Source of the DNA: Polytrichum commune
Taxonomy: Eukaryota > Streptophyta > Polytrichopsida > Polytrichales > Polytrichaceae
Reading direction: 5' to 3'
Length of the DNA stretch: 64,000 bases
NCBI GenBank assembly: GCA_950295325.1
Contig: OX485804.1
Span: 32,116,001-32,180,000 of the forward strand
Shown: positions 6,233 through 44,778 of the stretch, piece after piece
Numbering within the stretch: the stretch's first letter is position 1
Layout of the letters: each line of letters begins with the position of its first letter
Notes under the pieces: model-generated
What the model was told of the DNA's origin: nothing
Databases searched by the model: none
What the model saw: the letters and a program-made list of their open reading frames with translations, nothing else
Program-made: the position numbers and the translations under genes

Positions 6233-8505
6233 ATGGATTACGATCTATGCAATTCTTAGATATTAACCATGTCCATAGATTTTGCAATTATCTAGAGATG
6301 AGACCACAAGATTCTCGTAGTGAGGACAAAAGTAGGACCTCCAAAATCTTAGTACTTAGAACATGTTTAAATTGCAAGTTGTTATCAATCTTACAAAACT
6401 TGTGAATCCATTAAATTTATAAAACGATGACCACTAACACAAACATGAGAACATTGTATTTTACACGGACACCAATATCACCTCGATTTCACACATGTTA
6501 ACATTTGGAGTCACATGTTACATGGAGCTTTATAATGACAATGTCACTATAGACTGGCATAAATAGGTACACTAAATATTGTATTTAGTATCACCAATTA
6601 TATTTGTCTTGCTCGATACTAATTGTAAACCGTATGTGTAGTGTCACTGACACTGAATGCAAACCTAAAATTTCTGTCATTCCTTGTAAAAAAAATTACA
6701 TTATAAATATTCGACGTTGGTTTTCTTTTGACTCACAAAGCGATTTTTCATCCAAATCTCAATCACACACGACATGAATTCATTACATTAGTATTGGGAT
6801 GCAAAATATACCAAAAGTGGATGAACTGAAAGTGATTTGGGATGATAATATTTGTAACTTGTTCAATAAGAAGTGTCATTAGAAAAGTTACCACAATGAC
6901 CTAAACTACCATGTGGCACATGATATGGTATTTTGTGTAGTATGCACGTCAAGGACACATGGTATAATTTGCTTGGTATAAACTATAGCAATGCATAACC
7001 CCAAATGATAACCCACACTATAATAGGTGATATTGGTGTTCTTGACAGTAATGTGAAGCACGAAGTGCAACACGTCATCTTATGTATACATTTTGAATAG
7101 AATTTTCCATCATTCCATTCCAACCATGATACAAACTTTTTGTAGAATTCTACTTTTTTATAGAAACCGTATCAACCCTTTTTCTCTCCTACTAAAGCAC
7201 CTTCGACCTTCCTTTCCTAGGAGGACCATCTCATGACATGGAATCAAGGTGGCACTCCTCCCTAAATATACATTATTTTATAGTTTTTTATTTTAATAAT
7301 AATACTTATTATTATTATTATTATAACTAGTGAATTAAACTTTCATGTCCAGGGTGGCAACTCAAACAAATGATTACAGGGGGTTCGTCCAAAAATTTCA
7401 TAAAGGCATAGATTATGTACACATAATGGTACATATAATCATAGATTATGCTTCAAATTATATGGATTCAAGAGTTTCAGAAGAGAAGCATGAGAGAAGC
7501 CACCGAGAAAAGTCGGGAAGAGAGTTAGGGTTAGGGCAAGCTTACAAGCCAAAATAATATATATTATCTTCAAAGAAAAGTGTAGATTATATAAATTATA
7601 ATTAGGTATGATGGAGACCAAATTATGGATGAGCCCCCCTGTCCAAGAGAAAATCCACGTTATTTTCAGATTATTCATGTTTTATAATACAAAGACATGC
7701 TCAAATCAAAAAAATATTACTTAGTATGGACGGTCTTAGTGTGCATCACTCCATTTTAAGTTTTGTGAAATTGTTCTTTGGTATGAATGTACAAGGTTAA
7801 TATGGATGGATTATATGTTACAAATTATTTAGCACTATGGGCTTTCATGTGAACTTAACCTAACTTTGATTATGAGGAGGATGATCCTCCAATGTGTGGT
7901 TGGAGCTGGTAGGAGGTCATTTACTCTTGGGGATGGAGTTAGTGATATAACTATCAATTCTCTTTAGCATCTTGCTAGCAACACCCTAAACAAACATGGC
8001 ACTCAAGCCCAATATGAGAGACACCCATCACCTAGTCAACGAACTTCAATGCCTTCTACAATAGGAATATGAACTTCAAATTTAGGTATTGAAATTCTCA
8101 CATGTATGTATTCCAATTTCAACCAATTAATTGTTCAAACAATGTAATATTTCATATACTCATCCCAAACAAGAAAAGCCTATCCTCACTACAGTAGTTA
8201 CCTCTGCATGGAAACTACTACTTTGCAGTTGTTGGGTCTTCTCAAATTTGTGATTTTATTTCTCTTGTCTAGATGTGTATTGAAGCTACATTGCTTATCC
8301 TAATAATTGAGAGAGGACTAATGGTGCGTGTGGGAAACTATTGAAGGTAATACTAAATTACTTTACGCTATGAAATTAGTGCCACCAAATGATTTAGGAA
8401 ACATTGTTCATCCTGGCATTGTTCATTGAAAATACTATTCATAGGATCATTGTTTATTATTCATCCCAACGATGTTTACTATTCACAGACAATCATGTGT
8501 TGCAG
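6233..8505. other. Gene-free stretch
   Basis: I see no supportable gene. Apart from the diverged repeat fragment near 6,570-6,660 and a short (AAT/ATT)n tract near 7,299-7,322, I recognise nothing in it. Confidence 0.4.
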
Positions 8506-9530
8506 ATAGATAGAAACTCCGGTCCCCTTTCGAGGCCGGCGTGAATAGAGTGTCTGTTCGTCTTGTCAATGAGCCAGTGCCCACCGGGCAGGGGAACATT
8601 GGTACAAGACTACTCTCCTCTTTCGAGAATAGACACTTTAGTAGCCAGTAAACAGATAAGAGTAGCCCTTGGTGTTTGATTAGTGAGTATTAGATAATTG
8701 TGGTGTAGTATAAGTAGGGGTCTTTTTGTGTCGATGGTCACCAAGTCATGTTTCCTTGGTTGGTTGAGGGAGGGTATTTGTATTATACTCTAGATGGTCC
8801 GGGTTCGATTCCCGTTGAGCGTTTAGTGTGTTGTGCATGGCTTGGTGCTGCTAGTGATTTACGGCAGGAAATTGTTCCAACTAGCTGGCTTCTACCCATC
8901 TTCCTGAGCTATAGGCTACATTATGTTTAATAAATATTAGATTTTATTAATATGTGTATTTATTGTTTATTTGTTCTATTTTGTTTTAGTGGTATAATGG
9001 ATGGTTTTAGGCATGTCTTGTCCTAACAATCTGTTGGTATTGCTTGGTGATTTTCGATACGTCTTTTGTGTAATAGAATTGAGCTAGCATATTGGATGGC
9101 GTTGGTGTTTATTACTTTGAATGTGTGTTTAATTGAAGTTTCAGGTAGTTTGAATGTTTGCTCGAGTTGTTTCATTGAGGGGGCGTGAGTGGTGCCTCTA
9201 GCTCCAGCTGTCACAACTATAAGTGGATCTATCTTCCAACCTTTTTGTGCAATGTCATCAATTAGTGGTTGGTATTTGTGAATTTTACTAGTGATTGTCT
9301 CTTGTGGGAATCTGTCATTTGTGTATGTGAATTCAATAAATTGTACCGTGAGGTTGTCGGTTGGGTGTGTTGGCGGTGTGTTTTGGTGAGGGAGTCCTTT
9401 GATGCATAGTAGGTCGGGTTTGAATCTGGCGTTGCAATGGCATCTGTGTTGTCTGCATGTGCAGGGTAGGAGCCATGCAGGGACTGTGTTTTCCTGTTGG
9501 TCATGTGTTGCATCTATATGTTTATCTAAG
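8506..9530 (-). mobile_element. 5'-truncated retroelement with endonuclease-like C-terminal domain
   Basis: On the minus strand an uninterrupted frame of about 160 codons runs from about 9,525 to a TAG at 9,023-9,025. In order it shows a Cys cluster (CTCRQHRCHC), a RFKPD motif, FIEFTYTND, KYQPLIDD, a GW..PLIV.TAGARG block and a final HKRRIENHQ. The spacing of PD followed by E-x-T/K-Y suggests a PD-(D/E)xK-like nuclease fold, as in the C-terminal endonuclease of R2/Dualen-type non-LTR elements. That class is inferred from motif shape, not from a search. A non-coding 3' part follows down to 8,516 and ends in CCGGAGTTTCTATCTATCT, a microsatellite-like tail. The reverse-transcriptase part is missing, so this is a truncated copy. 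Confidence 0.5.
8754..8826 (+). repeat. tRNA-like Pol III promoter unit (SINE-like head)
   Basis: An A-box-like string TGGTTGAGGGAG starts at 8,761 and a perfect B box GGTTCGATTCC at 8,802, a distance of 41 bases, close to that in tRNA genes. The acceptor ends do not pair, so it is not a working tRNA gene. It lies antisense in the 3' non-coding part of the retroelement. Confidence 0.35.
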
Positions 9531-9605
9531 AAGAAGAAGAAGAACTCCGGTCTCCGGAGGAGGCCAGAGTGAATAGAGTATTTGTTCGTAAAACATCCTT
9601 AGCCA
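9527..9605 (-). mobile_element. Second retroelement 3' end abutting the first
   Basis: Read on the minus strand, this short piece carries the same end signature as 8,516-8,570 (ACGAACA, CTCTATTCAC, GGCCTC, CCGGAGTT) followed by a (CTT)n tail. A third copy of the signature lies near 28,490-28,540. Only about 60 bp of shared sequence is visible, as expected for a severely 5'-truncated insertion. Confidence 0.45.
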
Positions 9606-9949
9606 CGCCCACTGTCTATCTAACTATATATGCATTTATGCTCTACAAGCACCTTAGAGCATACACTAATTTCCTTTCAATGTATGACAAATGAGTATGT
9701 ATTCATGAATTTAGTGTCAACTAGTTAAGAAGTCAACCCTCACTTATTTTGAGACTTGACAAACCACAACACGTTCCAAAAATTAGTACCACACACACTT
9801 ATTGGGTGACAAGTCGAATGGAAGCCTTCATCATCAATGGTGCTCTAAATTTTTCTATCCTTGATGTAATGTATCCATTAGAGGAAAAATAAGCTAATAG
9901 TTTAAAAGTGATTTCCGATGAACTTCATTTAGCCACATAATGAATGTGA

Positions 9950-27738: not shown

Positions 27739-29395
27739 TAACTAGCCTATGTTAGCCGTCGCAAGGTAGGAATACCAACTACGTTCACTATGTAACGAAA
27801 CTCACCATGTTCTTGGTTAATAGTAAGACTTGCTCAAGGTACAAACATATGTATTAAACATATACCATTTAAAGTGGCCCGCACTATTCACCAAAGATTC
27901 GCGTTAATTGTCTTGCATTTTCATGTGTTGCTTTGAGGGAGGTATATTTTGAAGGGCCAAATCACATTTGAAGGGCATTGAAGACTTCAATCTCGAACAT
28001 TGCCCACATGCCTTATAATAATAGTGTGAGGGATTGTGAAGCTTCGGAACATGTAAAGTTACATGCAACTTTAGCATGGACAACCAACACGGGCTAGTTC
28101 CTCAGGATGTAACTTAGGGCTCGTGATGAGGATGATGTTTGGAAGCTGCCAATACCTTTACAAACCCACCAACCAGGTGAGCCAAAGAGCTGTTCCTTGC
28201 CAAAAAGTGATGTTTAAAATAGCGATTCCGAGTCAAATAGTGTGGTCAGAGCTTATCATATTGTTCACATGGGGACAAACGAGGAAGCACTACATACAAA
28301 ACACTGCATTTCTTATGTCATTCATTGGATCACCAAACTATAAGGCTTGACCTTGCATGTAGCAAACCCACATTTCACATGTGTCCTTCGTTTGATTTTG
28401 AATGATTAGACAACATGTGGATAAGCCCCCCAAGTGGGGCCTATGATTTGTACATGATTGCATTTGATCTTCATATGTTTATAGATATATAGATAGAAAT
28501 CCATACCTCTTTCAAGGCTGGCGTGAATAAAATGTATGTTCGTAATGTTAATGACCTAGTTATATGTGTGTGTGTGTGTGTGTGTGTTTGGCTATAGATT
28601 TGTTGTAGCTATGTAACTCATTTACAATTTGTTTTAGAGTTATCGAAGCGTTGATGAGGGCAACGCTCTGAGACAAGGAAAGTGATTATTTTAGAGGTAA
28701 CTCATTTTAAGAGTTTTTTCCATCATTACTCAACACTATGGTGTTGTACCCTAGCATTGTAATTTTGCGATCATCATGTCCCATGTATGTTGGGCCACCT
28801 TCACAAAAGTGCGTACTAGTGAATATGAATATTGTGTAAGGCTTTCCCATTGGTTTGCATTGGTTCTCCTAAGGTGGTTGTACTTTGGTTCCATTCTTGC
28901 AAATGATTTTTCAATTTGTGCCCAAAAAAAAAGGTATTGTTTAAGGTTGTATAGGCAAACCGATAAGTGAGCCTACCACATGCATCTCTTACCGAAACAT
29001 TCATATATATATAAACTTGCATGCATGCCAATCGGCCTACGTGCCTACCCACCTATTACATGGGGCCCGACACCGCATGTCGTAACAGACACCATGTTAA
29101 CTAGGGTGAGAATCTTCGGCCATGTGTGTTGGAGAGAGAGAGAGAGAGAGAGATTAACCTTAGTGGGATCAGCGTGATTGAAATGCACACTCAACCCACC
29201 TTTAGTATTATGTCCACTAAACATAATATCAATGGTGTAGGAATGCTAACCCCTCTCAGGGTGGGCACTATAGTAACTAGGGTGACCAAAGTGACCATGA
29301 GAATTGAGTGACTGGATGATCTTTGCAATGTTGGGGTTAGTGTGGTTGTGGTGTTGTAGGGGTATATGATCATTTTTCTTCGTAAGGTGGCCACC
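27739..29395. other. Gene-free stretch with repeat fragments and microsatellites
   Basis: About 27,935-28,010 is a reverse-oriented fragment of the repeat at 37,443-37,825. About 28,490-28,540 carries the retroelement end signature with an ATAGATAGATAG tail. (GT)n lies at about 28,565-28,588 and (GA)n at about 29,132-29,153. No gene. Confidence 0.45.
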
Positions 29396-39060: not shown

Positions 39061-42000
39061 CATGCTTCTAGTTGCCATGTTTCTTTAGAAAACATCATTT
39101 CTTCATCCATTTCCTCAAAAGGGTTGCTTGCTTCAAAGAATGCCAAAAACTTCAATGGTCCAAATCCCAAGTTCATCCATGCATAGGGCCCATCTCAGTA
39201 GGAGCCATACACATGGATGCCCCCGCCATGTTGTCTGTGGACGGGGCACCTATGACCCAAGTTCCCACAACAACCTCCTTCCCATCCCCTTTGTTCATCA
39301 ACCCATGGACTTGTTTGTTTTGTGGTCTCTATTATAAAGCGGATGAACAATTGAAGTGTAGTAGAATGTCCTCTTGGGTCGCGTATTCTCGCGTGTAATG
39401 GTACTGATTGGGTGGGAGCCCAAGGCCTTAGTGACACTACATGCGGGAATACCCAACCCGAAAGGCATCATACTACATTAAGAAACGTTGGTTTTTGTCT
39501 TTAACGCAACATTCCAAATTTGTCTAGTGCATTCCACCTGGTGGAAATTGCCCTACTTGAGGGGTACACTCTAGCATATCAAGGATGTAATAGTAACACA
39601 CGGAAAAATACAATCGTTATTTTATGTATATGGGAAGGCCTTGAATGGAGGATTACCCCAAAAATGAAGTGTGTTGCCCAAGTGGAGGGTTTGTCATTTT
39701 CAAAAAGATTAACATGCAAGGCCTTCCTTTGTTTTGAATGCGAGGGCGTTTTGTGGCCTTGTAAAGCCAAGTCCGAAATATGTAATGCCTTTATTCAAAT
39801 CGTGGCGGGAATTGCAATCACAATACACCCCCAGTTAACATAGCAATGGCCACCTTGAATGGCAAGAAGGGCAACACCATGTATCACCCACACACAACAA
39901 ATGCCTACCTTGCGTGCTTCACAATGGCAACAACTTACAAAAAAAGAGGAAAAACATACATGGCCCTCTGCATTCACCAAGCCCCATGCATGTTACCCAA
40001 ACACCCAACCCACAAATAAACTCAAGAACATACTAAATCACCCTCCACACCACTCCAAATCACCACCACCACTCCTCACAATTCACAACGTGCAACTCTT
40101 CACATAGGATCACCTTCAATAGCCAACCGACCCAACTCTTGCTATAATTCATGGACTACCAACAACACCAAGATTGGCCATTACAAAGGCAACACCCCCA
40201 AATTTGAGAGACGTGGGCACAACCAACAATCTCGTTTATACAACAAAAGTAGGAGCAATCCCGTGAAAATCAACACCTCAAAGAAAGCCAATTGCCAAAG
40301 GAGTAGAAGCAACCAAACCAAAGACAATACAAGTGGCACCAACCTGGAGAAGAAGTTAGTTGTAGACACAACCATAGCCCCAAAGTGAACAAAAACTTCG
40401 GTGGTAGATTGAACCAAGGCAACATCAAACATGACCATAGCAGACATTCAAATTAACACTAGAGCAAAGGACACAATCACAGTCCAAGAAAGAATTGTAG
40501 CCAAAGGAGGTGTTCCAATCGTCCGACAACCCAATGCAAGAGGAGAACCTATCAACCCACAACAAACCCAAACTGCCGTAGGTACCAAATACATAAAGTC
40601 AGAGGAAAATATCGAGGACCTTGCCTCATTGAAGTTGCATCAACACCACACTAAACTCTATGCACCAAAATTGCCACACAAATGGAAAAGCCAGCTCCCA
40701 TCACCCACAACAAAGTTACAATGCGCATGCACTAGAAGCCAAACAACCACAAGAATAAGCAACCAACCAAACACACATCAAATGACCTAGGAATCAAAGT
40801 CAATCCACAACACAACAAACCAATGTTAGACCAAAAAATACCAATTTGGCAACATCAATAACTCAAATTCACTAGCAAATGAATACCACAAATTTTGTAC
40901 CAAAAGTCACATCCTTAACCATGCCCCACACCAAGATCAAGATCATCACAATACCAATTTATGAAAGAGTTCAAACTTTGAGGAAGATGACGACCTTGAT
41001 ATGGATGGATGCCTCTCTGGATAAGAGTAATAGCTCCCCGCAACTCACCATGGCAGAGAGCCCACACTACCTCAATGTGACCACTCCTAATGTTGTGCAC
41101 CTAGCCAATAACACTCCTTCAACATCATAATATCACAATCCTAGAATAGACCACATATTAAAGAGTCATAGTGCAAAGAGGAGAATAGCCAAAGACTACA
41201 TTGCCACCTCCACGCCCGACAAATAATTCGTTGCCACTTTGACGCCAACATACACAAAAAGGAGAATGCCCCTCTTAAGCGTTGACATGATTGCCACCTC
41301 CACGCCCGACAAATAATTCGCTGCCACTTTGACGCCAACATACACAAAAAGGAGAATGCCCCTCTTAAGCGTTGACATGATTGGGCAATTGTGGCTAGTT
41401 TCCAAATGTATGAGGCACTCACAATTCAAAGAGGGAAGCACATTTTGGTGGAGAAATGGACCAATGAAGAATTCAACATCTTAGGAATACTTGCATGCAA
41501 AATTGACAAATATCGCACCCTCTGAGGACGTTCTCAATAATTGAGCAAGTTCTCTACCCCACCGGACATCTAGACATTGTTCACAACCAACATCTTCATT
41601 TTTCACATATACCAATGCATGAAAAGGTGTCGCCTGATGCCAATCTCATGGATGGATACCACATCATTATCCAATACAAAGACAAGGTCAGATCCATGGG
41701 AATAAAGCGAGGTTAAGTCCACTTGCTTAGGTAGATTTAAGAATACGAACATCCCCTTAGGCTCCGCATACACCAACTCATAGGACATAGGTATCAACAC
41801 AATGGGCAAGAACTAGGTGGGCTTCATGAAGCTCCACCTTCAACACCCAAAATGAGACGGTTTGGCATTATACATGGTGAGTGAGCCTTTGTCATGAAGA
41901 TGGAGGATGGGGAGCAAGTAACAGACAAAGTCGAGAATGGCTTTTAGTTGATTACCAAAGCTTGAACCATGCGCCTCCACCTCAAAGAGGACAACCTCAA

Positions 42001-44029: not shown

Positions 44030-44588
44030 AATTGGCATTCACTTAAGGTGTCTGCGGACGTGGAGAGGATTGCTTTTGTTTTGTACCGTGAAAGAAGAGG
44101 ATATTCTTGTAGCCGGTGTAGCAGGAAGGTTGAGTATTCTTGCCACGTTACTACTTGCGTCGTCGTCGTCGTTGTTGCCGCCGTGGCTCTTTTTTCTCCC
44201 CTTGTGCTACCAAGATTCAGCTTAGCAGGCTAAAATGTTTGTGTCAATTATTCTCTGCAGAGTTCGGAGAGGATTTATTCTTGCAGCCGTGGAAGAAGAG
44301 GAATGCTGCGGTGTAGCAGGAAAGGTGTGCTGTCTTGGCCACGTTTTTGCCTTGTGTCTTAGTTGTTGTTACCGTGGCATTCGTTACCCCTTGTGTTGCC
44401 AAGATTCAGCTTGGTAGGTTAAAAGATTTTCGTCAATTCTTCTCTGTGGCCTTCGGAGAGTATTTTTTTTTGCAGCCGTGGAAGAAGAGGAATGTTGCGA
44501 TGTAGCCGGAAGGGTGTGTTTGCGTGTCCAAATTTTTACTTCTGTCGTAGGAGTTGTTGCCAAGACATTCTTTTCCCTTGCGTTGCCA
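44030..44588. repeat. Three imperfect tandem copies of a unit of about 188 bp
   Basis: Units are about 44,030-44,212, 44,213-44,401 and 44,402-44,588. Each has GAAGAAGAGG, GTAGC(A/C)GGAA and a GTTGCCA-like end followed by AGATTCA. They lie upstream of the transporter coding exons. Confidence 0.7.
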
Positions 44589-44778
44589 AGATTCATCAAC
44601 TTAACCAGGCGAAAGCTTGGTTCAATTTTATGGAAGGGAGCCTTTAGTTTGTAATGTGTCGTAGCAATTTTTTTTTTTTGATTCGCCACACGAAACTCAC
44701 CAAGCCAACATTTCCTTTGAAATTCGATATCTTATGATGTTGATACTGGATTGAGATTTATAAGTTGGCTGTCAGTGC

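Follow-up and report, generated by a model that had tools for sequence, protein, structure and literature searches.

A 5'-truncated LINE in a moss genome and its very probable origin in a dual-endonuclease family with a CAPAM-like domain

Retrotransposons that carry two nucleases bear on the shift of LINEs from an R2-type to an L1-type nuclease, and green algae are the chief known source of such elements. The Dualen element described from Chlamydomonas by Kojima and Fujiwara in 2005 is said to include a cysteine protease as well, and an RT position midway between the RLE and APE groups in phylogenies counts as a further mark of Dualen/RandI. Elements of Dualen/RandI type unite an AP endonuclease (APE) and a restriction-like endonuclease (RLE) with a reverse transcriptase (RT) and an RNase H (PMC3636483, PMC4640811) and, in Chlamydomonas, are accompanied by partner SINEs that share their 3' tail, with (ATT)n or (CTTT)n repeats (PMC3747384). 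Moreover, there are non-LTR elements with 2A-like peptides (Odon et al. 2013, cited in PMC12846837).

The window analysed here is a stretch of 64,000 nucleotides from the moss Polytrichum commune, and its copy 1 (Table 1) is very probably a 5'-truncated, dead member of a non-LTR retrotransposon family that is large, was active recently in this plastid-bearing streptophyte and has the Dualen/RandI architecture. A previous, sequence-only reading had noticed a minus-strand frame with a Cys cluster and the motifs RFKPD, FIEFTY, TAGARG and HKRRIEN, all of which are present, and had taken it for a retroelement remnant, which is borne out by homology, copy number and target duplications that agree at 12 of 12 bp. 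Copy 1 is 83% identical in DNA to the intact copy L031, and its RLE part has 82% amino acid identity to residues 2764-2919 of the intact second open reading frame (ORF2). When the 157-residue window frame was searched against the 408-Mb genome at the protein level, at least 151 matches were obtained, with E values down to 1e-107 and relatives mostly 67-84% identical. The 3' end of copy 1 reads GGACCGGAGTTTCTATCTATC (8505-8525), and a genome-wide collection of 3' ends, as the same reading had proposed, gave 793 exact matches to a degenerate 3'-end pattern and none to the reversed control. Of the 191-codon frame, the initial ~32 codons (9598-9501) were rejected as part of the element, since the 12-bp duplications, identical at both ends, leave them outside a 5'-truncated insertion; they represent readthrough of the stub copy and host DNA. 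By itself, the window frame had no match in a Pfam scan, and nothing reached the gathering score in an Rfam scan of the window and two intact copies.

Table 1. Features of the window, in window coordinates
Feature	Position	Strand	Evidence
Target-site duplication of copy 1, 3' side, TGCAACACATGA	8493..8504	-	exact 12 bp
Copy 1, 5'-truncated dual-endonuclease LINE, 996 bp	8505..9500	-	12/12-bp target duplications on both sides
Intrinsic tail TTTCTATCTATC, (TATC)n type	8505..8516	-	tail type the same in 50/55 ends with different flanks
Structured 3'-terminal RNA, common to LINE subfamilies and SINE	8515..8645	-	33-pair consensus structure
tRNA-like sequence CCAAGTCATG...GGTTCGATTCC...CATGGCTTGG, antisense in LINE 3' UTR	8741..8846	+	B-box motif
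Coding part of C-terminal RLE, about 157 codons; stop 9023-9025	9026..9496	-	homology to intact ORF2
Target-site duplication of copy 1, 5' side, TGCAACACATGA	9501..9512	-	exact 12 bp; empty-site paralogs
Target-site duplication of copy 2, 3' side, TTAGATAAACA	9519..9529	-	identity 10/11
Copy 2, 83-bp 3' stub, sister subfamily with (CTT)n tail	9530..9612	-	TCYGG hairpin and (CTT)n as in L104-L105
Target-site duplication of copy 2, 5' side, TTAGATAGACA	9613..9623	-	identity 10/11
Copy 3, decayed 3' terminus, LINE or SINE of the same family; tail CTATCTATATATCTATAA	28489..28560	-	79% over 73 bp

The organization of the family is best read from its intact copies. ORF2 has 2919 codons in L031/L014 (C1), whose L031 numbering is used for ORF2 residues throughout, and 2625 codons in L032 (C5), the same 2625-codon frame being open in two more copies. 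The C5 copy has TTTGAATTAGGA on either side, and these matching 12-bp target duplications delimit an element of about 12.5 kb; for L031, a search for a target duplication at the 5' end found none. ORF1 overlaps ORF2 and contains a conserved core of about 480 amino acids, with 39% identity between the two lineages; the long frames upstream of the core are unconserved, and a Pfam scan of ORF1 gave no significant domain. ORF2 comprises, in this order, a 2A-like motif, an APE, an RT, a PCIF1/CAPAM-like domain, an RNase H, a CCHC knuckle and an RLE. Its conservation between lineages begins near the 2A-like GDIETNPGPM at residue 578, and the open leader upstream of this motif is poorly conserved. 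The motif takes the form GDIE(T/P)NPGP in the family, and a codon-degenerate pattern for it found 112 genome matches, with many synonymous variants, against 0 for the reversed control. No Pfam protease was detected in ORF1 or ORF2, a result of sequence profiles, which alone cannot exclude one. Residues 2018-2100 (YLCQW...W...LFP) are predicted to form three strands and a helix (pLDDT about 70-84) in a chromodomain-like arrangement; a chromodomain was considered there and dropped, since Pfam gave no match and the Foldseek matches listed included no chromodomain. By reading of the sequence, a pogo/Tigger-like DDE transposase frame lies just downstream of an intact LINE (L014 2997-3467). A search of viral contigs for relatives of the family found none.

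Between RT and RNase H, residues 2171-2299 match PF12237 (2.9e-12, 47 bits, cut-off 31.1), whose Pfam label, PCIF1_WW, is misleading: a later interpretation makes this family a CAPAM-like methyltransferase (PMC7641849). In phmmer searches, the domain matched the solved CAPAM chains 6irv (3.3e-4) and zebrafish 6irx (2.7e-3), and 6irx was also the first Foldseek match of the region, which, coming from a weak model (pLDDT 49), would carry little weight by itself. The genome contains the domain in at least 150 places, and a search with PF12237 for a host PCIF1 gene gave, among the matches listed, only LINE-like ones. The median pairwise dN/dS of its core is 0.16, an upper bound because decayed copies were among those compared, and adjoining segments have 0.21-0.24. 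The domain is thus homologous to CAPAM and kept by selection.

Catalysis by N6-adenine methyltransferases involves the Asn of the NPPF motif and its aromatic residue. The alignment places the A-N-P-P-F of CAPAM opposite A-H-P-P-N of the LINE domain, and in all ~40 copies read, which cover a wide range of divergence, the position reads HP(H/P/Q/Y)(N/T) (HPPN, HPHN, HPHT, etc.), with His in place of Asn and Asn, Thr or another non-aromatic residue in place of Phe. Thus, the domain is probably not a methyltransferase, and with the catalytic NPPF lost, a non-methylating role in binding RNA or a partner seems likelier than methylation; perhaps it serves as a reader of the cap or of RNA. One tentative and rather doubtful form of this reading is a pseudo-CAPAM, that is, a cap-specific adenosine methyltransferase captured by the LINE and turned into a non-catalytic reader of the capped 5' end, or of cap-proximal RNA, of the element's own mRNA. 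In that event, RT and RLE would grip the structured 3' end, and the element's own full-length RNA would be favoured within a very large dual-nuclease complex. Homology to CAPAM and purifying selection would also fit an active RNA N6-adenosine methyltransferase that modifies cap-adjacent or internal adenosines of the element's own RNA, but the replacement of NPPF by HPxN or HPHT in every copy read makes this improbable. A search of a literature library for PCIF1/CAPAM in retrotransposons found no paper. As a conserved part of a LINE, a CAPAM-like domain would be a novel type of accessory for retrotransposons, and one may ask whether the mRNA cap is sensed by LINEs.

The enzymatic domains around the CAPAM-like region decide the classification. 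The APE of L031 (residues about 795-1045), with QETK, GDFN and SDH, exceeds the Pfam cut-offs of PF03372 (31.1 bits, cut-off 24.5) and PF14529 (29.9, cut-off 27.4), and that of L032, at 18.1 bits, is under the cut-off with its catalytic residues present. It lies N-terminal to the RT (residues 1418-1681, Pfam 3.9e-27) in one ORF, and the closest sequences to the RT among solved structures are R2 proteins (7.6e-33). The RNase H (PF00075, 1.5e-14) occupies residues 2434-2577, between RT and RLE, and a CCHC knuckle (C2700...) is followed by the RLE up to the end of ORF2 (residues about 2690-2919). In a profile search, the RLE matched no PDB sequence, and since neither Pfam nor PDB detected it by sequence, its predicted fold was used instead. 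The five best Foldseek matches of this model (pLDDT 68.5) were all R2 retrotransposon proteins (1.1e-4), and comparison with the R2 C-terminal nuclease gave a VIA Z of about 10, with viral cap-snatching nucleases next, at about 8. The C-terminal nuclease-like domain perceived in the sequence-only reading is therein upheld, as a restriction-like endonuclease whose predicted fold is closest to R2. Among the relatives then suggested, Dualen proved the right one, and R2 and NeSL did not. The family possesses together the traits of Dualen/RandI, with APE, RLE and RNase H around one RT, and can be assigned with high confidence to this architecture, where clade membership rests on domain order. An R2/NeSL-type element with the RLE as sole nuclease, to which the R2 likeness of both RT and RLE among solved structures would point, is hardly tenable, since the intact ORF2s also have an RNase H and an APE over two Pfam cut-offs, the latter in the same 2919-codon frame, and insertions are dispersed with 11-14 bp duplications.

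The Dualen/RandI-type family also has a characteristic 3' end, whose last ~130 nt form a putative conserved RNA structure common to the LINE subfamilies and a SINE. Two-sided changes occur in 10 of its 33 pairs, with 35 such cells versus 12.5 in shuffles (0/500), in a test somewhat favourable to the structure, which was predicted from the tested alignment itself; when partners were slid, the pairing was destroyed. Main-lineage copies end in GGAGTTTCTATC(TATC)n in 50 of 55 ends, the sister subfamily L104 and L105 has a TCCGG hairpin with (CTT)n, and L106 has a T-run. In some main-lineage copies, the tail has shifted to (CTTT)n, (CTT)n or (ATC)n, a change that slippage during initiation of reverse transcription would produce. 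The repeat tail is intrinsic to the element and subfamily-specific.

The SINE constitutes a young family of about 357 bp plus tail, with copies mostly 92-99% identical (L036-L062, e.g., L053), and accounted for 14 of the first 30 3' ends retrieved. It joins a tRNA-like head containing the B-box-like GGTTCTATTCC to the last ~147 nt of the LINE. In addition, the LINE 3' UTR contains an antisense tRNA-like sequence closed by 10-bp arms (CCAAGTCATG/CATGRCTTGG), whose B-box GGTTCGATTCC was present in 29 of the 32 copies searched, the divergent subfamily (L105, L106) included, and which may be an old SINE or serve as a pol III promoter in antisense. ARAGORN found no tRNA gene in the LINE 3' UTR or the SINE.

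Regarding the other copies in the window, a second 3' signature with a (CTT)n tail beside copy 1 and a third copy near 28,490 had been pointed out earlier, and both are real: the former is copy 2 and the latter is copy 3, which is degraded and whose flanks show no clear target duplication. Copies 1 and 2 are separated by 29 bp of host DNA (9501-9529), consisting of two target duplications and 6 bp. Inspection of empty sites, likewise proposed in the sequence-only reading, was carried out with a 219-bp query made by joining the flanks of both insertions, which retrieved from the genome the halves of the window locus and many uninterrupted paralogs of the host repeat across both insertion points. 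In the 10 paralogs aligned, the copy 1 site reads ATGCAAACACATGCTTGTC or near it, without the element and without (CTAT)n, and the copy 2 site is variable and rich in A/T, one paralog having (TA)n and none having (CTT)n; copies 1 and 2 are therefore both plain insertions.

Among 22 tail-adjoining target duplications of 11-14 bp, hand-chosen as unambiguous, the first base is T in all 22, the preceding base is G in 17 and the further bases are A/T-rich, indicating a preference for A/T-rich but otherwise ordinary DNA at a G|T motif. The T signal is partly due to how duplications are delimited, which leaves the G at -1 unaffected (binomial p about 1e-8 at 20% G). The first T of the duplication is also the final tail base, an overlap that would be expected from priming by the nicked strand's 3' A on the terminal RNA U. 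Specific insertion of an RLE element into microsatellites, as some RLE elements do (PMC4640811), or into earlier copies, which the (CTAT)n and (CTT)n ends and the adjacency of two copies had suggested, is very improbable, being refuted for microsatellites by the ordinary sequence on both sides of the 22 duplications, by empty-site paralogs free of either repeat and by a tail unit that tracks subfamily rather than flank, and unsupported for earlier copies by copies 1 and 2, which lie side by side with separate duplications of their own.

The host DNA around these insertions (8393-8492 and 9613-9713) is a dispersed repeat (TAAATTCATGAATACATGCTCATTTACCATACATTTC...), with about 40 members among the matches listed. 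Elsewhere in the window, two tandem repeats look like short duplications, one of 90 bp (41200-41383; 2 copies, 98%) and the other of 189 bp (44198-44595; 2.1 copies, 80%). In the genome, C8, a contig additional to the seven large ones, holds a full rbcL of green-plant type that by reading of the sequence has a non-seed aspect; rbcL fragments in nuclear contigs (C3:14137891-14138196 and C2:70106055-70106189) are probably plastid DNA insertions.

For plain insertion at A/T-rich G|T sites, a mechanism can be inferred from predicted domains, sequence and junctions. An endonuclease would nick the bottom strand at (A/T)nG|T, the RT would recognise the conserved 3'-terminal RNA fold, and target-primed reverse transcription would begin at the last base of the tail, the 3' A of the primer pairing with the terminal U. 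Slippage upon initiation could account for the variation among (TATC)n or (CTT)n tails, cleavage of the second strand 11-14 bp off would give rise to the target duplications, and an early stop of reverse transcription would leave 5'-truncated copies, such as copy 1. The LINE machinery could also mobilise the tRNA-headed SINE bearing the LINE 3' end, and the CAPAM-like domain might bind capped RNA, RNA from the 5' part of the element or a partner. This streptophyte family offers near-identical intact copies, a SINE partner, mapped target sites and a 3' RNA of defined fold, so that it becomes testable which nuclease cuts which strand.

Compared with known systems, the moss LINE resembles Dualen/RandI in its APE, RLE, RT and RNase H within one element and in its tail-sharing partner SINE and simple 3' repeats. 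However, it differs in its streptophyte host, its length of 12.5 kb, its (TATC)n or (CTT)n tails and the lack of a Pfam match to a cysteine protease, as well as, relative to published descriptions of algal Dualens, in the PCIF1/CAPAM-like domain and 2A-like peptide; a literature search found no report of a CAPAM-like domain, a 2A-like motif or a streptophyte host for elements of this architecture. With R2 it shares the RT nearest in sequence among solved structures and a C-terminal CCHC-RLE arrangement of the same predicted fold, whereas APE, RNase H and ORF1 set it apart, as does dispersed insertion with no rDNA target seen. PCIF1/CAPAM methyltransferases have a core homologous to that of the LINE domain, with FxSPxxC, FGSxG and the NPPF position, but the LINE domain sits inside a retrotransposon ORF, has an altered NPPF and belongs to a protein without a WW domain in the Pfam scan. 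Finally, as in 2A-bearing non-LTR elements, D-I-E-x-N-P-G-P occurs near the N-terminus of a retrotransposon protein, whereas here the motif is preceded by an open but unconserved leader and opens the conserved part of a dual-nuclease ORF2.
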